NCBI GenBank assembly: GCA_946055105.1
Contig: CAMGEK010000004.1
Span: 1-41,281, forward strand
From: an uncultured Clostridia bacterium
Lineage (GTDB): Bacteria; Bacillota; Clostridia; Christensenellales; Borkfalkiaceae
DNA: 41,281 bases
Direction of reading: 5' to 3'
Shown here piece by piece: positions 8,430-20,496 of this stretch; position 1 is the stretch's first letter; every line of letters begins with the position of its first letter. Below the pieces are notes generated by a model. It saw only the letters and a list, made by a program, of their open reading frames with translations. It ran no database searches and was not told the origin of the DNA. The position numbers and the translations under genes were made by a program.

Positions 8430-10943
8430 TCAACGCGCCGCGGAACGTTTTTGATCGCTTTTGCGCGGTTTCAGATAGAGATAACCGCCCGCAATGACGA
8501 CGGCGAGCACGCAGAGCACGACGATCAGGCTGATTCGGAGCGCGTCGGGATTCTGACGGGCGAGCATGTCCGCGGTGATTTCGGCGTAATAGGACGTTCC
8601 GTCTTGTTCAAAACGGGCGAGGTAGGTTTCGCCGTTTTCCGTTATTTCGATTCTCGTGCGTTCAAAGAGACGCACTTCGTCTCCGTTTTCCGCACGGAAC
8701 ACGACGCCTTCCTCATGTTCCGCGAGTTCGGCAAATCGGAACTGCGTTCCCGATTCGATCGGCGGAACGGCGGTCAGATAACTGATCGGCAAGTATCCGC
8801 ACGTTCCCGTTGTACGGTTGCGCACATACGCAAACGTGCATTCGTTTTCGTTTGCGGCGGCGACGGTGGCAAGCAGATCAACCCGGTCTCCTCGCGTAAG
8901 TTCCTCCGAGCGCAAGTCTTCGGAGAGGCACGGAAAGAGATAGAGCGCCGTTCCGTTCGTCAGATAACGCTCTCCGTCCGTCTCCGTCCAATAGTTCTCC
9001 CGTCCGATCTCCGCGATGAAGTTCCGTTCGCGGCGGAAGAGATTGACGGTATAGCGGTGGTCGCTTCCGACGAGCGCCACGACGTGATACTCCGAGGTCT
9101 GCGCCAGCAGGATTCCGCGCATTGCGGTTTGCGTGCGGAAGTAGCGGACGTAGGGGAAATATTCTCCGCTCTCTTTCAAAGCGGAAAGGTCGGTCGTGAC
9201 GCCGATCGCGTTGTCTTCGACCGTGACGAGCGCAAGCGGTTGTTCGGGCGAGAAAATTTCGTCCGTCGCGTTTTCCGTTCCGATCGCGTCCAAGGCGGAA
9301 AAGGTCAAAACGTCCGTCCTTAATATAAAGGTATCGTAGAGAAGCTCGATTTTGTCGTCCTCGAAGCCGAGCGCGAAGTCCTTCGGTTCGGGAAAGGAAT
9401 CGGTGCGGTAAACGCTTCCCGCAACGTTGACCGTTGCGAATAACGTTCCGTTCCGATAGACGCAATTGCCTTTGAGACAATAGAGATTCCCGTTATAATC
9501 GGCTTTCAGAGAGCGAAAGTCCACGGGAAGCGTAACGGAGAGACGCTCTCCCTCCTCGGCGGAGACGAACGTATCGGCGGAATACCCGATCACGGAGCCG
9601 TCCTCGCCCGCAACGTAGAGCGTGTTGAATACGTCGCAGGTCAGCGCCTTCGGGACGAAAGAGGAAACGTTGCGGTATTTTTCCCGTTTCACCGTTCCGT
9701 CTGCGGAGACGGAGCCGTAGTCGTTCGCCGTCGTAACGTAATAAACGGCGCCGTACGAACATGCGACGCCCGCAAGAGAGCGTTCCGTCAGCTTCGTTTC
9801 AAACGTCTTGTCGCCGTCCTTCCGATAGACGGAAAGCCGCGCCGTATCGCGATCGGCTACGGCGATATAGTCTCCGTCTGTTGCAACGAGCATCTGCGCA
9901 TATGCGCAATCGATGACCGAAAAACGGTCTGCCGAGCGATCGTAGACGGAGACGCGGGCGTTTCCCTCGTCGGCAACGACGGTCAGATCGCCCGCCCGCG
10001 CGATGCGCGAAGCGTCAGAAAGCCGCGTTGCGGAAGAAGAACCGCCGCAGATTTCATAGCCGTTATAGACGGCGCCCGTCGCGGAGACCGTCACGCCGAG
10101 CACGGAATCGTCTTTTACGCAGTACAGGTTGCCTTCGTACTGCGTCAGCGCGGAAAAATTCCCCTCTAAAAGGCGCACGGCGTTCCCGTTTCCGTCCGAG
10201 CGGTACAAGCCGCCGCCCGTGCCCGAAGTCGTATAATACAGAGCACCCCGATACGCGCAAAGCGCGGTCAGATTGTCCGCTTCGGACGGACGGTCGGTCA
10301 GAAACCGGTTGTTGATCTGAACCGAACCGTTTTCGTCGACGGTGTAAGAATAATACGTCGAACCGCCCGCGCAGAGCAACGCGCCGTCGGCATAGGCGAG
10401 GTGCGGAACGCCGATCGGGCGCTCCTGTTCGAGCACGACGGAAGTCGAATCGCTCAGCGAAAACCGCGTGATCTTCGTGTTGTAATTGGATACGGCGGCA
10501 TAGTACAGCGCATCGCCTTCGATCAGGAAATTGGAAGCGGGAAACGCCTGCCGCACGGCGACGGGAGCGGTATTCAGATCGGAAAGGATATACAGAAGGG
10601 TATCTTCGTCCGAAAAATACAGCGTGCCGTTCTCCGTAAACTGAATTTTTGCGATCGTCGCCGTGTGCGCGTAACGCCGATAGACGCGTTCGCTCCTGTC
10701 GTACAGATACAGGGAAGTTCCGTCCGCAATCGCGACGTAACGGTCGCAGAACGCGACGTCCTTCGGAGCTTCGAGCGGCAGATATTGTTCGTACTCGGAC
10801 GGAAGAAAGAGTTCCGCGTTTTCCGTCGTGATCTCCGTCGCCGCGTCCCGTCCTTCTTCGGCGCGGGCGACCGTCGTAAATCCGACGCCCGTTCCCGCGA
10901 CAAACGCCGTTATCATCATCAAACTGAGCAACTTTCCTTTCAT
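8430..10943 (-). CDS. Large secreted protein: signal peptide, beta-propeller-like repeats, SH3-like region, C-terminal TM anchor
   Basis: N-terminal signal (LLSLMMITAFVAGTGVGF...ARAEE); repeated beta-strand text; C-terminal TM ISLIVVLCVLAVVIAGGYLYLKPRK. Confidence 0.7.
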   Translation of the reverse strand: MKGKLLSLMMITAFVAGTGVGFTTVARAEEGRDAATEITTENAELFLPSEYEQYLPLEAPKDVAFCDRYVAIADGTSLYLYDRSERVYRRYAHTATIAKIQFTENGTLYFSDEDTLLYILSDLNTAPVAVRQAFPASNFLIEGDALYYAAVSNYNTKITRFSLSDSTSVVLEQERPIGVPHLAYADGALLCAGGSTYYSYTVDENGSVQINNRFLTDRPSEADNLTALCAYRGALYYTTSGTGGGLYRSDGNGNAVRLLEGNFSALTQYEGNLYCVKDDSVLGVTVSATGAVYNGYEICGGSSSATRLSDASRIARAGDLTVVADEGNARVSVYDRSADRFSVIDCAYAQMLVATDGDYIAVADRDTARLSVYRKDGDKTFETKLTERSLAGVACSYGAVYYVTTANDYGSVSADGTVKREKYRNVSSFVPKALTCDVFNTLYVAGEDGSVIGYSADTFVSAEEGERLSVTLPVDFRSLKADYNGNLYCLKGNCVYRNGTLFATVNVAGSVYRTDSFPEPKDFALGFEDDKIELLYDTFILRTDVLTFSALDAIGTENATDEIFSPEQPLALVTVEDNAIGVTTDLSALKESGEYFPYVRYFRTQTAMRGILLAQTSEYHVVALVGSDHRYTVNLFRRERNFIAEIGRENYWTETDGERYLTNGTALYLFPCLSEDLRSEELTRGDRVDLLATVAAANENECTFAYVRNRTTGTCGYLPISYLTAVPPIESGTQFRFAELAEHEEGVVFRAENGDEVRLFERTRIEITENGETYLARFEQDGTSYYAEITADMLARQNPDALRISLIVVLCVLAVVIAGGYLYLKPRKSDQKRSAAR

Positions 10944-11117: not shown

Positions 11118-11807
11118 ATGTCGGAATACGATTACGTAAAAGTACTTTTATACGCCTATCCTCAATTACCGGCTTTTGCAGAAGCGATCGGCGTGAGCGT
11201 AGAGAACCGGGCGGCTCTGTCTTTTCGGTCTGTGAAGGATACGCTTTCGATTGCGGAGGAGCTTGCGACGGAGTTAGGACGGAAGGCGCGGCTTATGAAC
11301 GTATGCGAGAAATTGGATCGGATTCTGTTACGGTTGACGGAAGAGGAGGCGTTCTTGCTCGAATACAAATATTTCCGTCGGAAACGGCAGTTGCGGGAAA
11401 AGTTTTCCGAATGGGCGTTCGATTGTTCGGAGCGCAGTTATTATCGGAAACAAACCGCGCTGTTGCGAAAAATCGCCGCGCGTCTGATTGCGTGCGGCGA
11501 AACGGAAGAGCGGTTTTTGGAGGAGTTTTCCGACTGCGCGCCCCTCATGCGGCTCTATCGCGCGTTGAAGGCGGGCAAGGAGCGGACGTTCGTTGCGAAA
11601 CGCGAGAAGAGCGCGCTCTCGTTCGGTCAGAAGTCGGAAGGATCTTCCCGCGGCGGCGTCGGAGATTTCTTTCCGCGAAGGACGAAGACGGCGATCGCGA
11701 CGACGGACGCGCAGGCAAGACAGATGAGAAAGATGCGCACGCCGGACAGCGATTGTCGCGCGGATTCGTTTTCGGAATCCGCCGCGCCCGAAGCGGGAAC
11801 GAGATAG
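11118..11807 (+). CDS. Phage-type ArpU / sigma-70 region 4-like transcriptional regulator
   Basis: SD GGAGAGG; LTEEEAFLLEYKYFRRKRQLREKFSEWAFDCSERSYYRKQTALLRKIAARL resembles an HTH of phage late regulators; last ~60 codons are antisense to 11627-12331. Confidence 0.6.
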   Translation: MSEYDYVKVLLYAYPQLPAFAEAIGVSVENRAALSFRSVKDTLSIAEELATELGRKARLMNVCEKLDRILLRLTEEEAFLLEYKYFRRKRQLREKFSEWAFDCSERSYYRKQTALLRKIAARLIACGETEERFLEEFSDCAPLMRLYRALKAGKERTFVAKREKSALSFGQKSEGSSRGGVGDFFPRRTKTAIATTDAQARQMRKMRTPDSDCRADSFSESAAPEAGTR

Positions 11808-12331
11808 TCGGTATTGAGATCGTATTCGATCTCTTCCGTCACGGGGATATAACCGAATTTTCCGTCTCCGTACACATAGCAATATTGCGCGCTTCCCACG
11901 GTAAACGTGCCGTAAAACAGGTAGGTGACGTCGACGCTTTGCAGGAATTGATCGGAGAGCGCGGGAGAGGAATTCGGAAGCGTATACGTCACGGTGATTT
12001 CCCGTTTGAGATAGGGGCGACGGGGGATAAAATCCACGAACGTGAGCTCGGCTTTTTTGCAATACCCCGCGATCTTGCGATAGGGCGCAAGCTCCTCCTG
12101 GTATTCCACGCAACAGAAGGGATCTCCGAGCGCGGTGATTTTCACGTAATAGGTATAGGGAATCGCAAACAGTCCCGCGTTGTCGTTGGGTTCGGTATAG
12201 AGATATACGTTTTTCGCGTCGGCGACGGCGTAGAGTTCGCTCTCTTCCGCCCGTGCCGCAAGCGCGCGGACGGGCGCCGGAAAGGCGAGGAGCGCGGCGA
12301 CGGCGAGAAACAATGCGCATAATCGTTTCAT
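11627..12331 (-). CDS. Secreted SH3-like protein with C-terminal TM anchor
   Basis: Signal peptide MKRLCALFLAVAALLAFPAPVRALAARA; TM IFLICLACASVVAIAVFVL then short charged tail. Confidence 0.7.
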   Translation of the reverse strand: MKRLCALFLAVAALLAFPAPVRALAARAEESELYAVADAKNVYLYTEPNDNAGLFAIPYTYYVKITALGDPFCCVEYQEELAPYRKIAGYCKKAELTFVDFIPRRPYLKREITVTYTLPNSSPALSDQFLQSVDVTYLFYGTFTVGSAQYCYVYGDGKFGYIPVTEEIEYDLNTDYLVPASGAADSENESARQSLSGVRIFLICLACASVVAIAVFVLRGKKSPTPPREDPSDF

Positions 12332-12384
12332 AACCGCGATTATACCGCCGACGACGGCGCGTGAAAGAATAAATTTTATCGGAT

Positions 12385-13818
12385 ATGGTCGAAATTATAG
12401 AAAAAATCAAGGCGATCGAGGCGGAACAGCGCAGGCGCGCGGGCAACGACGCGCTCGCACGCTATAATACGGGACGGAAAAAGCACCGCAAACAGCTCGC
12501 GTTCCACCGCTGTCGGAAACGCAATCGGTGGGTGTTCGGCGGAAACCGATCGGGAAAAACGGAATGCGGCGCCGTGGAGGCGGTCTATCTGGCGCGCGGC
12601 GTGCATCCCTATCGGAAGAATCGGAAAAACGCGTTCGGTTGGGTGGTTTCGCTCACGGCGCAGGTTCAGCGCGACGTCGCGCAGAAGAAAATTTTACACT
12701 ATCTCCGTCCGGACTGGATCGAGGACGTCGTGATGACAAGCGGAAGAAAAGACCGTCCCGAAGCGGGCGTCATCGACCAGATTTTTATCAAAAACGTGTT
12801 CGGAGGGACTTCCGTCATCGGGTTCAAGAGCTGCGATCAGGGCAGAGAGCGTTTTCAGGGCAGTTCGCTCGATTTCGTCTGGTTCGACGAGGAACCGCCC
12901 AAAGAGATTTACGAGGAATGTCTGATGCGCGTTGCGGACAGGCGCGGGGACGTGTTCGGTACGATGACGCCTCTGAAAGGGTTGACCTTCGTCTACGAGG
13001 AGATCTATCTCAACCGAAGAAACAATCCCGAAATCTGGTACGAATTTATGGAATGGGCGGACAATCCCTATCTTTCCAAAAAGGAGATCGCCCTGCTCGA
13101 AGCGACGTTGGACGAAACGACGCTGCAATCGAGAAAGCTCGGTCGGTTTTGTACGCGGGAGGGGCTCGTCTATCCCGAATTCGACGAAAGCGTGCACGTC
13201 GTCGAACCCTTCCCCGTTCCCGCCGAATGGCAGGACGAAATCTCGATCGATCCCGGCTTGCATAATCCGCTCTCGGCGCATTGGTACGCGGTGGATTACG
13301 ACGGGAACGTTTACGTCGTGGCGGAGCATTATTGCGCGGGACGGGACGTGGATTATCACGCGCGGGAACTATATCGGATCAGCGAGGCGATCGGCTGGAA
13401 GCGCGATTCCGCGGGGCGGCTCTCCGCGCTCATCGACAGCGCGGCGGGACAGCGGACGCTCGCCGCTTCCAAGAGCGTGTCCGAGCTGTTCTACGAGCGG
13501 GGGATTCTCGTCAATCCGCGCGTCAACAAGGAACTGTTCGGCGGGATCGCACGCGTGAAAAGTTATCTGAACCCCAAAAACGGTCTGCCGAATTTATATA
13601 TATTTTCCTGCTGTACGAATATGATACGGGAAATCAAGGGGTATTTCTGGGGGAGCGGGGAGAGCCCCGAAAAACGGGACGATCATGCGATGGACGAATT
13701 GCGGTATTATCTGATGAGCAAGCCGTCGCACACCGCGCCGCCGACGGAAAAAAGCGCGGTCGCCCGCGATAAAGAGCGGCGCATGCGAAAACTTGCAAGG
13801 AGGAATCATGGAAGATGA
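12385..13818 (+). CDS. terL: Phage terminase large subunit (ATPase and nuclease motifs intact)
   Basis: Walker A FGGNRSGKTE, Walker B LDFVWFDEEP, nuclease acidic motifs SIDPGLHN, ALIDSA, DDHAMDELRYYL. Confidence 0.93.
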   Translation: MVEIIEKIKAIEAEQRRRAGNDALARYNTGRKKHRKQLAFHRCRKRNRWVFGGNRSGKTECGAVEAVYLARGVHPYRKNRKNAFGWVVSLTAQVQRDVAQKKILHYLRPDWIEDVVMTSGRKDRPEAGVIDQIFIKNVFGGTSVIGFKSCDQGRERFQGSSLDFVWFDEEPPKEIYEECLMRVADRRGDVFGTMTPLKGLTFVYEEIYLNRRNNPEIWYEFMEWADNPYLSKKEIALLEATLDETTLQSRKLGRFCTREGLVYPEFDESVHVVEPFPVPAEWQDEISIDPGLHNPLSAHWYAVDYDGNVYVVAEHYCAGRDVDYHARELYRISEAIGWKRDSAGRLSALIDSAAGQRTLAASKSVSELFYERGILVNPRVNKELFGGIARVKSYLNPKNGLPNLYIFSCCTNMIREIKGYFWGSGESPEKRDDHAMDELRYYLMSKPSHTAPPTEKSAVARDKERRMRKLARRNHGR

Positions 13819-14065
13819 ACGCGTAAAACGGGCGCTCGAAAAGGTGGCGCTTGGCTATTCGCTCGAAGAGGTTACGGAAGAGTACGGCGTGGAGGACGGG
13901 GAACTGAAACTTCTCAAACGCCGCGAAATCAAAAAGGAAATTCCGCCCGATCTGAAAGCGGTCAAACTGCTTCTCGAAGAGAAGGATTACGCCGCGATGT
14001 CGGACGAGGAGCTTGAATCGGAAAAGCGGCGGTTATTGTCGCTGTTAAAGGAGGAAGAAACATGA
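13808..14065 (+). CDS. Small acidic/helical protein between terL and portal; possible terminase small subunit
   Basis: SD AAGGAGG before ATG at 13808; stop overlaps portal start (ATGA); HTH-like SLEEVTEEYGVEDGELKLLKRREI. Confidence 0.7.
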   Translation: MEDERVKRALEKVALGYSLEEVTEEYGVEDGELKLLKRREIKKEIPPDLKAVKLLLEEKDYAAMSDEELESEKRRLLSLLKEEET

Positions 14066-15924
14066 AACTTGACGAAACGCAGAGGGAGGAGCGGCGCGTA
14101 AAGGCGCTCGTCTCCGAAATCAGGGAAGATTTTGCCGCGCGACAGGCGGCGCGGCGGTCGCTGGAACGGGGTTGGCAGTTGAATATCAACTTCGTCAACG
14201 GCAATCAGTATTGCGACATTTCGCCCGCGGGCGATCTCGAAGAAGAAGATCCCGCGTTCTATTGGCAGGCGCGTCGGGTTTTCAACCATATCGCGCCCAC
14301 CATCGATACGCGGCTTGCCCGTCTTTCAAAAGTGCGCCCGACGCTCGGCGTCCGCGCGTTTTCCGATTCCGAAGCCGACGTGAAAACGGCGCGTCTGTGT
14401 TCCAATATTCTGAAATCGGTCAAAAACAGGATCGATCTCGATCGCGTCATTTCCGAAGCGACGCTCTGGTCGGAAACGTGCGGAACGGCGTTTTATAAGG
14501 TCGTCTGGAATTACGACGACGGCATGGTGATCGGAACGGACGAGACGGGGCGCGTCTTGCGCGAAGGAGACGCGAACGTCATCGCGCTCTCTCCGTTTGA
14601 AATTTATCCCGACCGCCTGACCGCAGGGAGCATGTCCGAAGTGAAAAGCATCATTCATGCGAAGGCGCTACCCGTGTCCGAGATCGGGGAAAAGTTCGGC
14701 GTATCCCTTCCGGGCAGACGGATCGACGATTTTTCGCTCGCGCCTTATTCTTCGGCGGGGGGCTGGAAACGGCCTGCGGACGGCTGCGACGCCCCCGTGC
14801 TCGAAGATCATGAGATTTTAATCGAACGGTATACCCGTCCGGACGGGACGAACCCCGAAGGACGGTTGGAGATAGTTGCCGGGGACAGACTTCTGTACGA
14901 GGGAGCGCTTCCCTATCGGAACGGAGACAGGGGAGAACGCGCGTTGCCCTTTATCCGTCAGACTTCGATTCCGCTTCCGGGCGCCTTTTTCGGCACTTCG
15001 GTCGTGGACAGAATGATTCCCCTGCAACGGGCGTACAATGCGGTCAGAAACCGCAAACACGAATTTCTCAACCGACTGTCGATGGGAGTCATCGCGGTCG
15101 AGGACGGCTCCGTGGACGCGGACGAGCTGGCGGAAGAGGGCTTATATCCGGGAAAGGTTCTCGTCTACCGGCAGGGTTCGCCGACGCCGAGTTTCCTCGA
15201 CTGCGGGAAATTGCCGTCCGAGTTTGCCGAGGAGGAAGAGCGGATTTCAAACGAGTTCATTCTCGTATCGGGAATGAGCGAAATTTCCAGAAATTCCGCG
15301 AATCCCACACATGTGACCTCGGCGGTCGGATTGCAGCTCCTCATCGATCAGGACACCAACCGTATGAAAATGAGCGTGGAAAGCGTGGATCGGGCGGTAA
15401 AGGAAGCAGGCAAACAGATTCTTCACCTTTATAAACAGTTCGCCTCCGCAAAACGCGTTCTCCGCATGACGGGTACGGGCGGGCATACCGAGCTGTTTTA
15501 CTTCGACGCGAGCGATATTTCCGCAGACGACGTGCAGTTCGACACGGAATACGACCGTACGCCCGAACAGTTGCGCGAGGAGATGCTCAATCTGCTCAAC
15601 CTCGGGCTGTTGAAGGATGAAAACGGCAAACTTTCGGACGATACGAGAAACAAACTGCTCGAAGCGCTCGGGTACGGATCGTTTGAAAACGCGAGGGATA
15701 TTTCCCGACTTCACGTCAAAAAGGCGGAGCGGGAAAACGTCCTTCTGGCGCAGCGCGACGTGGAGGCGGCGACGTACGACGATCACGAACTTCACGTTAC
15801 GGAACATACGCGCGCCCTGCTTTCCGGCGGGGAAGATACGGAGGCGACGCGGGAGCGGATTATGCGCCATCTCGAAAGTCACCGTCGCCTGATGGGAGGG
15901 ACCTATGCAAGAGGAGAACATTGA
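14062..15924 (+). CDS. Phage portal protein
   Basis: 620 aa between terL and scaffold/MCP; FVNGNQYCDI...RRVFNHIAPTIDTRLARLSKVRPTLGVRAFSDSEADVKTARL...YNAVRNRKHEFLNRLS. Confidence 0.88.
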   Translation: MKLDETQREERRVKALVSEIREDFAARQAARRSLERGWQLNINFVNGNQYCDISPAGDLEEEDPAFYWQARRVFNHIAPTIDTRLARLSKVRPTLGVRAFSDSEADVKTARLCSNILKSVKNRIDLDRVISEATLWSETCGTAFYKVVWNYDDGMVIGTDETGRVLREGDANVIALSPFEIYPDRLTAGSMSEVKSIIHAKALPVSEIGEKFGVSLPGRRIDDFSLAPYSSAGGWKRPADGCDAPVLEDHEILIERYTRPDGTNPEGRLEIVAGDRLLYEGALPYRNGDRGERALPFIRQTSIPLPGAFFGTSVVDRMIPLQRAYNAVRNRKHEFLNRLSMGVIAVEDGSVDADELAEEGLYPGKVLVYRQGSPTPSFLDCGKLPSEFAEEEERISNEFILVSGMSEISRNSANPTHVTSAVGLQLLIDQDTNRMKMSVESVDRAVKEAGKQILHLYKQFASAKRVLRMTGTGGHTELFYFDASDISADDVQFDTEYDRTPEQLREEMLNLLNLGLLKDENGKLSDDTRNKLLEALGYGSFENARDISRLHVKKAERENVLLAQRDVEAATYDDHELHVTEHTRALLSGGEDTEATRERIMRHLESHRRLMGGTYARGEH

Positions 15925-16348
15925 AAGGGCTTCCGGAGAGGAAGAGCGTTCCGCGGAGGCGGAGAAAAAAGAGGCTCCGTTCGCTCTCGGGAAATTCGCG
16001 AGCGTCGATGCCCTCGTACACGCCTACGAGGAGTTGGAGTCGGAATTTACCCGTCGCAGTCAGAGACTGAAACGCCTCGAAGAGGAGAACAAAGCTCTCG
16101 CGGCAAAAAACGAAGGCGGCGAGGGAAATTCTGCCGCGGCGTGGACGGAAAGCGATTCGCTTTACCGTGCGGTCAACGAAAACGAAGGGGTGCGCGCCCG
16201 CGTGCTGAGCGATTATATCGCTTCGCTCAAAGGCGTGCCTCTGATGACGGAAGGCGGCGTCGGCGTAACCGCGCCTCCGCCCAAAGCAAAAACGATTGCG
16301 GACGCGGGGCGCATGGCGCTCGGATATTTCCGCGATCGGAATCATTGA
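15905..16348 (+). CDS. Scaffolding-like protein
   Basis: Highly charged coiled-coil protein immediately upstream of the capsid gene; SD GGGAGGG. Confidence 0.7.
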   Translation: MQEENIERASGEEERSAEAEKKEAPFALGKFASVDALVHAYEELESEFTRRSQRLKRLEEENKALAAKNEGGEGNSAAAWTESDSLYRAVNENEGVRARVLSDYIASLKGVPLMTEGGVGVTAPPPKAKTIADAGRMALGYFRDRNH

Positions 16349-16362
16349 AAAGGAGTTAATTT

Positions 16363-17514
16363 ATGGTAACCACACAAACGGCTGATAACGCATTGAAATC
16401 GTATTATCTCGACGTGGTGAGCGATCAGCTCAACCTCGCGGTCAATCCTCTGCTGGCGCAGATCCGTCGCAGTACGGCGGACGTCTGGGGAAGAGACGTC
16501 AGAAAACTCGTTCGGTTCGGCGTAAACGGCGGGATCGGCGCGGGGACGGAGGACGGCGCGCTTCCCGCCGCGGGAGGCAACAATTACGCGCAATTCGTCT
16601 CGCCGCTGAAAAATCTATACGGAACCATCGAGATTTCCGATAAGGCGATCCGCGCTTCCGCGAACAACGAGGGCGCGTTCGTCAATCTGCTCAACGACGA
16701 AATGGAGGGGCTGGTGAAGAGCTCTTCGTTCAACTTCGGAAGAATGTTGTTCGGGGACGGCAGCGGCACGCTCTGCACCGCCTCCGCCGTGACGGGTACG
16801 ACGTATACCGTCGATTCCGTCGCCGCGGTTGCGGAGGGCATGATCGTGGACGTCTACGTTTCCGGCAGCGTCGCCGCGTCGGGACGCACGATCACCGCGG
16901 TGGACAGAAGCGCGAAAAAGATCACGATTTCGGGATCTGCGATCGCGACTTCGGATAAGGCGGTCTTTGTCGTTCAGGGCTCTTACGGGCTCGAACTTAC
17001 GGGACTCGGCGCGATCTTCTCCGATTCCGCTACGCTCTACGGCGTGACGAGAAACGGGAATCATTGGTTGACCCCCTATCGGGAAACGGCGGTCGGCACG
17101 ATCACGGAGACGAAAATTCAGAAGGCGATCGACGCGCTGGAAGAGAATGCCGGCAGCAAAGTCAACTTCATCGTCTGTTCCTGGGGCGTTCGCCGCGCGT
17201 TGGCGTCCGTGCTCGCGCAATACCGTCAGACGGAGAGCATGACGCTCGAAGGCGGTTTCCGTGCGATCAGCTTCAACGGAATCCCCGTCGTGGCGGACAG
17301 ATTCTGCCCGAGCGGGACCATGTACCTGTTGAACACGGACGACTTCTGCCTGCACCAGCTCTGCGACTGGCAGTGGCTGGAAGGCGAGGACGGAAAGATT
17401 CTCAAACAGAAGGCGGGCAAGCCCGTTTATACGGCGACGCTCGTCAAGTATGCCGAACTCATCTGTTCCCGTCCCTGCGGACAGGCGAAACTTTCGGGTA
17501 TCACCGAAGCGTAA
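16363..17514 (+). CDS. Phage major capsid protein, HK97-fold type, with beta-rich insertion
   Basis: VRKLVRFGVNGGIGAGTEDGALPAAGG...NLYGTIEISDKAIRAS...MEGLVKSSSFNFGRMLFGDG...GFRAISFNGIPVVADRFCPSGTMYLLNTDDF. Confidence 0.88.
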   Translation: MVTTQTADNALKSYYLDVVSDQLNLAVNPLLAQIRRSTADVWGRDVRKLVRFGVNGGIGAGTEDGALPAAGGNNYAQFVSPLKNLYGTIEISDKAIRASANNEGAFVNLLNDEMEGLVKSSSFNFGRMLFGDGSGTLCTASAVTGTTYTVDSVAAVAEGMIVDVYVSGSVAASGRTITAVDRSAKKITISGSAIATSDKAVFVVQGSYGLELTGLGAIFSDSATLYGVTRNGNHWLTPYRETAVGTITETKIQKAIDALEENAGSKVNFIVCSWGVRRALASVLAQYRQTESMTLEGGFRAISFNGIPVVADRFCPSGTMYLLNTDDFCLHQLCDWQWLEGEDGKILKQKAGKPVYTATLVKYAELICSRPCGQAKLSGITEA

Positions 17515-17520
17515 TCATGC

Positions 17521-17548
17521 AAAGAGCGGGGGAAACCCCGCTCTTTTT
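17521..17548 (+). terminator. Rho-independent terminator/attenuator inside the capsid operon
   Basis: AAAGAGCGGGG-GAAA-CCCCGCTCTTTTT, perfect stem with GNRA-type loop. Confidence 0.88.
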
Positions 17549-17564
17549 AATCGGGAGGTAAAAT

Positions 17565-18125
17565 ATGTTGGTGAAAGAAGTCGTCGCGCTTGCCGCGGCG
17601 AACATGGGTCGGGAAGATCTCGTGAACGACGCCGAAACGCTCGAAGGAGAGCCGTCGGGGGAACTCGCGTCCCTTCTGCGTTGCTATAATCTCGTCGAAA
17701 ACGAGGTCGCGCTCGACTATTTTCCGCTCAAACGGTGCGAGCGTCTGTCCGCGGAGGAAGGTCGGATTCCCTATTCTTCCTTTTCGATGGCGCCCGTGAA
17801 CGTGATTCGCGTGGAGAACGGGGCGGGGCGCGCGCTCGCGTTTGAACTGTTTCCCGATCATCTCTGTCTGTCGGACGGGAAGGGGGAAGAAGCGATCGTC
17901 ACGTACGCCTATTCTCCTGCGGAAAAGAAATGGACGGAGGAAAGCGCCTTCTCGGACGGCGCGATTTCGGCGCGGTTGCTCGCTTTCGGCGTTGCGGGAG
18001 AGTTCTGTCTTTCGCGCGGGCAATTTTCCGAGGCTTCCGTATGGGAAAAGCGGTATCAGGACGCGTTACGCGCCGCGAATACGCCCTGCCGCAGACGCGC
18101 GATGCGGTCGAGGAGATGGGCGTGA
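17565..18125 (+). CDS. Head-tail adaptor/head completion-like protein
   Basis: Position after MCP; VKEVVALAAANMGREDLV...LLRCYNLVENEVALDYFPL. Confidence 0.6.
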   Translation: MLVKEVVALAAANMGREDLVNDAETLEGEPSGELASLLRCYNLVENEVALDYFPLKRCERLSAEEGRIPYSSFSMAPVNVIRVENGAGRALAFELFPDHLCLSDGKGEEAIVTYAYSPAEKKWTEESAFSDGAISARLLAFGVAGEFCLSRGQFSEASVWEKRYQDALRAANTPCRRRAMRSRRWA

Positions 18126-19417
18126 GATACCGGAAAGATTTGTCTGCGCCCGCCTTTACCGCAAGGACGGTGAAGCTCGAAGGCTGTTCCGCGTTCCGCG
18201 AACGGGAAGACGCGCTCGTAGCGGAAAAATGCGTGCAGTTTCGTCCGGACGGAGACGCGTTCGTGTGCGGAGAGGGCGGAAAAATATTGACGGAAGCGAC
18301 GGGGATTTTCCGTTTGATGCGGGGCATGGACGGCGTCGTCGGATACGGCGACGGAAAAATCTACTGCTTTTACGGAGAAAAAACGGAAATCGGAGCGACG
18401 GAGACGCCGAACGCCGTCGTGGAATGGAAAGACGCGGACGGCGTACCGAGAACGTACGCCGTATCCGACCGGAAAATCGTGCGGTTGGACGCGGGCGGCG
18501 TAACGGAGATCGAAGGCGCGGCGGGAGGCGTTTGCGCCGCGGTCCATTACGAGCGGTTGTTTACCGCGAGCGGCGATCGCGTGCGCTATTCCCGCGCGCT
18601 GGCTCCCGAAGATTGGACGGAGGCGGCGCAGGGCGCGGGATACGTCGATCTTCCTTCGGAGGACGGAGCGATCGTGGCGATGGTCTCGTACAAGGAAAAA
18701 CTCTATCTGTTCCGTGAGCGCGGGATCATGCAGCTGCGCGTTTTAGGGGATAATCTGAATTTCAAGGCGGCGTCCATGCCCTATTCCTGTGGGAAACTCT
18801 ACCCGAGGACGGTGGTAAACTGCGGCAAACGCGTGTTATTCCTGACCGATCGCGGACTGTATGCGTTCAACGGCGCGGGGTGCGTGCGATTGGGCGGGAG
18901 CGGGTTTTCCTCGCTCGATCTCAGCGCGGACATGGTTGCCGCAAACGTCGGAGACCGATATTATCTTGCGGCGACGAGCGAGGGGCGGCGCAGGATTCTC
19001 TCCTACGACGAACAGACGGAGACGGGATATTTTATCCGCGCGGGGGCGAAGGAACTCGCCTCCGACGGCAAAACGCTCTACTATACGGCGGAGGGAAAAC
19101 TCTGCCGTCTCACGGAGCGCGGATTTCCCGAGGGCGAGCGCGCCGCGTGTACGCTCGAAAGCTGCCGCTCGTCGTTCGGATTGTCGGGAGAACGGAAATT
19201 CCTCGACGGCATTACGCTGTCGGGAGAGGGATTTTTCCGCGTGACGGCGACGGGCGAGACGTGCGAAAGAGCTGCGGGAAGGGCGGGTGAAAAACTGCGG
19301 TTTTCCGCGCCCGTCCGCGGTTCGTCCTTCCGTCTCCGCATCGAAAGCGGTTCGGAGGGCGTCTGTCTGCGGGGAATTACGTTGAACATGCGGGAGGAGA
19401 ACGCGTATGGTTATTGA
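18116..19417 (+). CDS. Beta-propeller-like phage neck/tail-hub (DNA stabilisation-like) protein
   Basis: Repeated beta-strand blocks (YKEKLYLFRERGIMQLRVLGDN, VLFLTDRGLYAFNG); overlaps upstream gene by 10 nt. Confidence 0.6.
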   Translation: MGVRYRKDLSAPAFTARTVKLEGCSAFREREDALVAEKCVQFRPDGDAFVCGEGGKILTEATGIFRLMRGMDGVVGYGDGKIYCFYGEKTEIGATETPNAVVEWKDADGVPRTYAVSDRKIVRLDAGGVTEIEGAAGGVCAAVHYERLFTASGDRVRYSRALAPEDWTEAAQGAGYVDLPSEDGAIVAMVSYKEKLYLFRERGIMQLRVLGDNLNFKAASMPYSCGKLYPRTVVNCGKRVLFLTDRGLYAFNGAGCVRLGGSGFSSLDLSADMVAANVGDRYYLAATSEGRRRILSYDEQTETGYFIRAGAKELASDGKTLYYTAEGKLCRLTERGFPEGERAACTLESCRSSFGLSGERKFLDGITLSGEGFFRVTATGETCERAAGRAGEKLRFSAPVRGSSFRLRIESGSEGVCLRGITLNMREENAYGY

Positions 19418-19898
19418 TATCATCGATCTGACTTCGGACGAGTATTCCAATCTGTCCGCGGTGCAGCTCGCCATGGTGCGTGCGGCGCAGGCGAAGAAGG
19501 ATAAAATTTTAGCCGACGCGGAGGAGCGGAAAGGGGAGCTGTTCCGATTGACGCTTTCCAACCGCACGGCGCGCTCGACGGCGTTGCGGGACGCGCAGGC
19601 GCAGATCGACGAGCGGGCGCTCGCGGAGATCGAAACGGTGAGAAGCGATTTGAAATATCAGATCGCATACGAGGGAATCGCGCAGGAGGGGAACGAGTAC
19701 GGACCCTACCGCTATCCCGAAAATCCGAACTACAATCTCACCTATTCGCAGCGTTTCCTTGTCGTGCGGAATTACTATATGAGCGCGACGAGCGATCCGA
19801 ACGCGCGCTTGCAGGCGTATTCGATGGATACGCTTGCGCGGGAATATCTAGGCGAGTTCTATCAGACGCTCTACGAATTGCTTGCCTCTTACTGCTGA
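19407..19898 (+). CDS. Coiled-coil protein at end of capsid module, function unknown
   Basis: SD GGAGGAG; AMVRAAQAKKDKILADAEERKGEL... then YGPYRYPENPNYNLTYSQRFLVVRNYYM. Confidence 0.6.
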   Translation: MVIDIIDLTSDEYSNLSAVQLAMVRAAQAKKDKILADAEERKGELFRLTLSNRTARSTALRDAQAQIDERALAEIETVRSDLKYQIAYEGIAQEGNEYGPYRYPENPNYNLTYSQRFLVVRNYYMSATSDPNARLQAYSMDTLAREYLGEFYQTLYELLASYC

Positions 19899-19948
19899 AT
19901 TTTGGACGGGGAAGTATAAATCGGACGCGGATTTGCCAAATTATAGGT

Positions 19949-20044
19949 ATGAGAAAGATTCGTACCAATCCGCTCGGCAAGACGCGGGACGAGCGCGAAA
20001 CGTGCTTCCCTTCCTCGGAACGGGAGGAGGTGCGTTCGGAATGA
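19949..20044 (+). CDS. 31-aa basic small ORF translationally overlapping spoVAC
   Basis: MRKIRTNPLGKTRDERETCFPSSEREEVRSE; stop TGA overlaps the spoVAC start in ATGA. Confidence 0.35.
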   Translation: MRKIRTNPLGKTRDERETCFPSSEREEVRSE

Positions 20045-20496
20045 CGGGAAAAAACAGGGAAAACTATAACCGGAATTATATCGCGTACGTCAATTCGTTC
20101 GATCCGCCGACCAAGCATTTCAAGACGTGCGGACACGCGTTTCTCGTAGGGGGATTTATCTGTTCCGTAGGGCAGTTCTTCCGATATATGCTGGAATTTG
20201 CGGGATTGACGGGCGAGGAGCTGGCGGGCGCCGTTTCGATATTACTGATATTTCTCGGAACGCTGTTGACGGGCTTGGGCGTGTACGATCGGATCGGTCG
20301 GCATGCGGGCGCGGGCAGTATCGTTCCGATTACGGGGTTCGCCAATTCCGTCGCCTCTCCCGCGATCGAATTTAAGACGGAAGGTTTCGTCTACGGCATG
20401 GCGGCGAAGATGTTCATTGTCGCGGGACCGATTATCGTGTTCGGCGTAAGCGCGGGCGCGGCGGTCGGGATCGTCTATTGGCTGTTGGGGCTGTAA
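20041..20496 (+). CDS. spoVAC: Stage V sporulation protein AC family
   Basis: HAFLVGGFICSVGQFFRYMLEFAGL...LIFLGTLLTGLGVYDRIGRHAGAGSIVPITGFANSVASPAIEFKTEGFVYGMAAKMFIVAGPIIVFG; SD GGAGGAGGT. Confidence 0.93.
   Translation: MTGKNRENYNRNYIAYVNSFDPPTKHFKTCGHAFLVGGFICSVGQFFRYMLEFAGLTGEELAGAVSILLIFLGTLLTGLGVYDRIGRHAGAGSIVPITGFANSVASPAIEFKTEGFVYGMAAKMFIVAGPIIVFGVSAGAAVGIVYWLLGL

Follow-up and report, generated by a model that had tools for sequence, protein, structure and literature searches.

Why would a bacterium keep a compact set of phage head and DNA-packaging genes in the midst of its own chromosomal genes? The question is raised by a 41,281-nucleotide stretch of DNA from the genus Candidatus Gallimonas (Borkfalkiaceae), hereafter the window, in which the original prediction, made from the sequence without database searches, had placed such a set at positions 11118–20496 and had proposed a gene transfer agent (GTA)-like particle, a DNA-packaging satellite, or a capsid co-opted for spore- or surface-linked physiology. 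As we argue below, these bacteria probably use the genes to make virus-like particles that package the cell's own DNA, rather than carrying a dying virus. Few GTAs are known outside Alphaproteobacteria, and the gene clusters behind much of the GTA-like packaging in the gut are not known; the cluster is a candidate genetic basis of the packaging of this kind reported in Christensenellaceae, and would document the vertical descent of a Gram-positive GTA over a long span.

A head and packaging module flanked by bacterial genes

As judged by the open reading frame (ORF) list and PHROG and Pfam matches, the head and packaging module is genuine and spans positions 12385–19898 of the window. Every ORF listed in the original prediction exists, and the libraries name TerL, a TerS-like protein, portal, capsid and hub; from TerL to the last module gene the cluster takes up 7.5 kb, its genes overlapping slightly and free of frameshifts, just as described. 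The large terminase TerL (12385–13818, plus strand; phrog_2, 2e-27; PF03237) is the single PF03237 terminase in the genome. It is followed on the same strand by a TerS-like small terminase that lacks the N-terminal helix-turn-helix (HTH) domain (13808–14065; phrog_309), a P22/SU10-type portal (14062–15924; phrog_156, 5e-35; PF16510, P22_portal), a scaffold-like protein with no library match, assigned by its place between portal and capsid and its retention in the family (15905–16348), the major capsid protein (16363–17514; phrog_14242, 7e-68), a connector/neck-like protein assigned by position and conservation, also with no library match (17565–18125), a fast-evolving hub/stabilisation-like protein (18116–19417, the start being at 18116; phrog_3287, 2e-12) and a 163-aa helical protein (19407–19898). 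The HK97 fold proposed for the capsid is borne out by the structural model (pLDDT 85), for which Foldseek retrieves capsids of this fold from phages Mic1, A-1(L), SU10 and HK97. The 163-aa protein, earlier described as a coiled protein, is 56–69% identical to its counterparts across the genus. It is probably a shortened DUF7934-type protein, to judge from hhalign, which pairs it with this family as found in other carriers (E 7e-5, 63% probability).

Upstream of TerL lies a putative late-gene activator of the ArpU/RinA phage regulator type (11118–11807, plus strand; weak matches to phrog_36, 1e-3, and phrog_248, 1e-2), which is kept in this position in most families. Between regulator and TerL sits a minus-strand gene (11627–12331) for a membrane protein whose tandem SH3b-like domains lie between a predicted signal peptide and a C-terminal membrane helix (model pLDDT 85; Foldseek matches to autolysin/NlpC SH3b domains, E ~2e-3). 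The divergent intergenic region that separates this antisense gene from TerL (12332–12384, no strand assigned) may carry promoters of both the packaging operon and the SH3b gene; in most Gallimonas loci the region upstream of TerL measures 39–60 bp and contains conserved blocks seen by eye. Since the gap (within 12300–12400) is very short and leaves scant leader space before TerL, leaderless starts are possible. Further out, an 837-aa large secreted protein (8430–10943, minus strand; DUF5050/DUF5711 propeller-like, with a C-terminal membrane helix, by Pfam) precedes the module in those Gallimonas loci where the contig is long enough, and is a genus-linked accessory; in other families a similar position is taken by large secreted proteins with no detectable homology.

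The flanks are bacterial, as stated in the original prediction: prolyl-tRNA synthetase (ProRS), a class II tRNA synthetase, GH43, a nucleotide-sugar dehydratase and glutamate dehydrogenase. The predicted lack of phage mobility, replication, tail and lysis genes also stands: among the window ORFs examined, none encodes an integrase or a replication, tail-fibre or lysis protein, and the corresponding gene set of a functional prophage is missing from the neighbouring ORFs examined. One tRNA-Arg is present in the window, with no integrase noted, and a DNA-level search of phage records returned only short matches of less than 100 bases. The last ORF of the stretch originally proposed (19882–20496) does not belong to the module: by Pfam it encodes the host protein SpoVAC. 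Synteny with spoVAC across the genus is partial, the gene adjoining the module in only part of Gallimonas and being sometimes inverted or displaced, which rules SpoVAC out as a module member and leaves the proposed spore link unsupported.

Distribution and gene order

Of the 36 other genomes of Gallimonas, 34 have a capsid homologue; for the order (taken by inference to be Christensenellales), 297 genomes were sampled and 176 have one. In genus and order carriers alike, the copy number is nearly always one. Across the class only 26 of 392 sampled genomes have it, 14 of them in the window's order, and part of the class-wide matches are true (pro)phages. Within Gallimonas the module occupies a single locus with conserved neighbours and a conserved order: secreted protein, regulator, antisense SH3b gene, TerL, TerS, portal, scaffold, capsid, connector, hub and 163-aa protein. 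Elsewhere the canonical cluster comprises ~13 genes: regulator, antisense SH3b membrane protein, TerL, TerS, CxxC protein, portal, scaffold, capsid, small protein, connector, hub, DUF7934 protein and two holins, BhlA (PF10960) and Phage_holin_1; relative to Gallimonas, the CxxC protein and the small protein 3' of the capsid are extra. Host addresses such as murG and infC-rpmI-rplT are common to different families.

Even genomes of 0.8–0.9 Mb retain the module, which implies a real benefit. It is not essential, as it is lost or broken in a few lineages: a 100% complete genome of family f28 (G064) has lost both TerL and capsid, and in genomes G009 and G061 TerL is truncated. That loss does occur makes persistence elsewhere meaningful.

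Individual loci depart from the canonical layout. A DNA-methylase/restriction-like block lies directly 3' of the capsid gene in three of them (L299, 11406–20254; L310, 5986–12763; L282, 8283–16250) and inside the module in a fourth, which has a truncated TerL and a capsid remnant (L081, 2329–9522); these insertions suggest a defence-island hotspot in the module. The capsid genes are duplicated in tandem in another f28 genome (G127; L079, 8035–10379). In family f76 a reduced scaffold–capsid–small protein–connector–hub set adjoins serC, with TerL at another locus (L069, L070). Among the IMG/VR loci (L262–L311), many viral contigs of 4–19 kb that carry this module appear chromosome-derived; the capsid-bearing viral contigs are mostly pieces of 4–19 kb and, going by the five inspected, probably chromosome fragments falsely called viral.

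Inheritance and selection

To judge inheritance, we compared module and host trees for 30 genomes from 11 families. The TerL, portal and capsid tree has 20 of 27 splits in common with the rpoB tree, including 17 of 19 strong splits, with no strong conflict, while label shuffling leaves at most 3 of 27 in common. The portal tree on its own agrees with rpoB in 16 of 16 strong splits; the capsid on its own agrees less well, with some conflicts.

TerL, portal, capsid, connector and terminal protein are free of internal nonsense codons (48–81 related loci); apparent stop codons in the alignments fell at match ends and were dismissed as start-site or end effects. Because saturation inflates the all-pairs median dN/dS, we used only the three closest pairs, which give 0.09–0.12 for TerL, 0.04–0.23 for capsid, 0.04–0.15 for portal, 0.07–0.10 for the 163-aa protein and 0.17–0.39 for the hub. 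TerL and capsid are the genes that the original prediction had singled out for this check. No gene of the module is better conserved than TerL, and the motifs earlier reported as intact are kept in 14 genomes of six families: Walker A (GGNRSGKT) but for a single S/T change, the DEE of Walker B, and the nuclease residues D289, D351 and D433/D437. With TerS and portal kept as well, DNA packaging is evidently what is selected.

These results bear directly on whether the module is the remnant of a decaying or defective prophage that chanced to retain its head genes. While the missing tail-fibre, lysis, integrase and replication genes and the existence of related true (pro)phages (L072, L301) would fit such an origin, decay should break genes at random, as it does not here: the module is intact in dozens of species, under purifying selection, in orthologous positions and with a host-like phylogeny, and the real decay in G009 and G061 looks different. 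We therefore regard a remnant as very unlikely.

TerS truncation and split loci

In most carriers TerS measures 85–119 aa and its match is restricted to positions 195–244 of phrog_309, while the TerS of a phage relative (L301) has 157 aa, covers positions 133–265 and shows weak HTH matches at its N-terminus. The N-terminal HTH of related phages' TerS is thus absent from the module protein. Two families, f33 and f13, retain a long TerS; that of an f33 carrier has 177 aa and covers the N-terminal part of phrog_309 too. Since non-specific packaging needs the loss of the DNA-recognition domain, the truncation fits a GTA and offers, on sequence grounds, a plausible molecular route by which packaging that was once site-specific could have become non-specific. 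One f33 locus (L085, genome G069, a single contig of 2.4 Mb) has two TerL copies and a long TerS, and also encodes a 493-aa protein with the look of a beta-helix tail spike by eye and no Pfam hit; it may represent the ancestral state.

In genus g32 of family f28 (genomes of 0.8–1.2 Mb), TerL, regulator and SH3b gene lie 38–103 kb from the TerS-to-holin block, both parts being intact, and in f76 TerL is likewise apart from the head genes. A virus could not propagate in this arrangement; a GTA could. The spacing in f28 suggests that the full genome of the element would not be packageable in its own particle. It also weighs against a phage satellite or capsid-forming chromosomal island mobilised by helper phages. 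Such an element might be expected to be small, with self-contained head and packaging genes, as the module is; however, no integrase or replication module was noted, and its chromosomal addresses are fixed in the genus or shared between families. This option of the original prediction is extremely unlikely.

Surface proteins, lysis and competence

The surface link originally proposed finds partial support: two secreted/membrane proteins, among them the SH3b protein, regularly accompany the TerL side of the cluster, and the SH3b gene stays beside TerL across families, even where TerL has moved. We guess that the SH3b protein acts in wall binding, particle release or reception. That a module devoid of tail-fibre or receptor-binding genes is accompanied by a wall-binding-type membrane protein and a large secreted one could also mean that its capsid was co-opted for a role unrelated to DNA, or that it forms a bacteriocin-like killing particle, as reportedly proposed for PBSX, in either case tied to the cell surface. 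The same question was left open for the GTA of Faecalibacterium prausnitzii, FpGTA (PMC12946183). Against both roles stand the conservation of TerL, the highest in the module, with its ATPase and nuclease residues all invariant, and the retention of TerS and portal, and we consider such co-option unlikely.

BhlA holin was found in none of the 37 Gallimonas genomes searched, and neither an endolysin nor a receptor-binding protein was identified for the module; for release and delivery, these results weigh against the GTA reading. ComEC and DprA are present in 18 of 18 carriers checked, but being equally common in non-carriers they do not discriminate.

A candidate gene transfer agent

GTAs are defined by particle proteins derived from tailed phages, by endogenised genes, often at several loci, and by vertical inheritance with co-diversification with the host; further, by a genome that exceeds the capacity of the particle, packaging of mostly random host DNA, and delivery of that DNA to other cells (PMC9662315). 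The first three can be examined in genomes, and all are found: homologues of TerL, TerS, portal, HK97 capsid and hub; endogenised genes at one locus in Gallimonas and with TerL split off in f28 and f76; and 17 of 19 strong splits in accord with rpoB. On these genomic signs we judge it about 80% probable that the module is a domesticated, chromosomally fixed GTA of podovirus type. The GTA-like option of the original prediction is thus strongly supported by vertical inheritance, single copy, an intact motor, purifying selection and dispersed loci.

Such a GTA might work as follows. A signal acting via the ArpU/RinA-like regulator would turn on the operon in some cells, and capsid and scaffold would assemble on the portal into a small head. 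Paired with a TerS devoid of its recognition domain, TerL would load host DNA regardless of a pac site, and connector, hub and DUF7934-type protein would close off the filled head by forming a very short neck. Cell lysis, via the holins in most other families, would release the particles, whose DNA may then enter related cells.

Comparison with known systems

By published description and gene content, the closest known system appears to be FpGTA (2026), a podovirus-like GTA for which particle and packaged DNA have been shown; the same study reports that Christensenellaceae DNA, too, is packaged in a GTA-like manner, and the one gene cluster that it describes is that of Faecalibacterium (PMC12946183). 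FpGTA likewise has a short-tailed-phage-type cluster of ~10 ORFs (TerS, TerL, portal RCH50851.1, scaffold, capsid RCH50849.1 and phage-related hypotheticals), a TerS without an obvious DNA-binding domain, near-ubiquity in its own genus, no replication genes and a host among gut Bacillota (PMC12946183). It differs in belonging to another order, while the Christensenellales module is inherited over many families; in having a second operon for its lysis and tail genes, while here holins lie within the main cluster in most other families; and in that its particles and packaged DNA were seen, while our module is known at the level of genes. No Faecalibacterium was recognised by 16S probe pattern among the 392 class genomes.

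The alphaproteobacterial RcGTA and CcGTA are vertically inherited head–packaging clusters that co-diversify with their hosts, with dispersed loci and a terminase without specific recognition. By description the module shares vertical inheritance, dispersed loci and probably a non-specific terminase with them, but they are siphovirus-like with a full tail. The nearest named phage capsids, those of the actinobacterial phages Shocker, Jasmine and Casserole, are ~29–32% identical (TerL ~26–27%); these, however, are complete phages of ~45–47 kb. P22/SU10-type podoviruses share the portal family, a hub-like protein and the SU10-like capsid fold, but these are free viruses whose tails bear spikes or fibres.

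Our literature search turned up no published GTA from Borkfalkiaceae. We give even odds to the fuller proposal that Christensenellales carry an order-wide, vertically inherited podovirus-type GTA, independent of or distantly related to FpGTA, which lost the DNA-recognition domain of TerS inside the order and recruited a wall-binding-type membrane protein beside the terminase.
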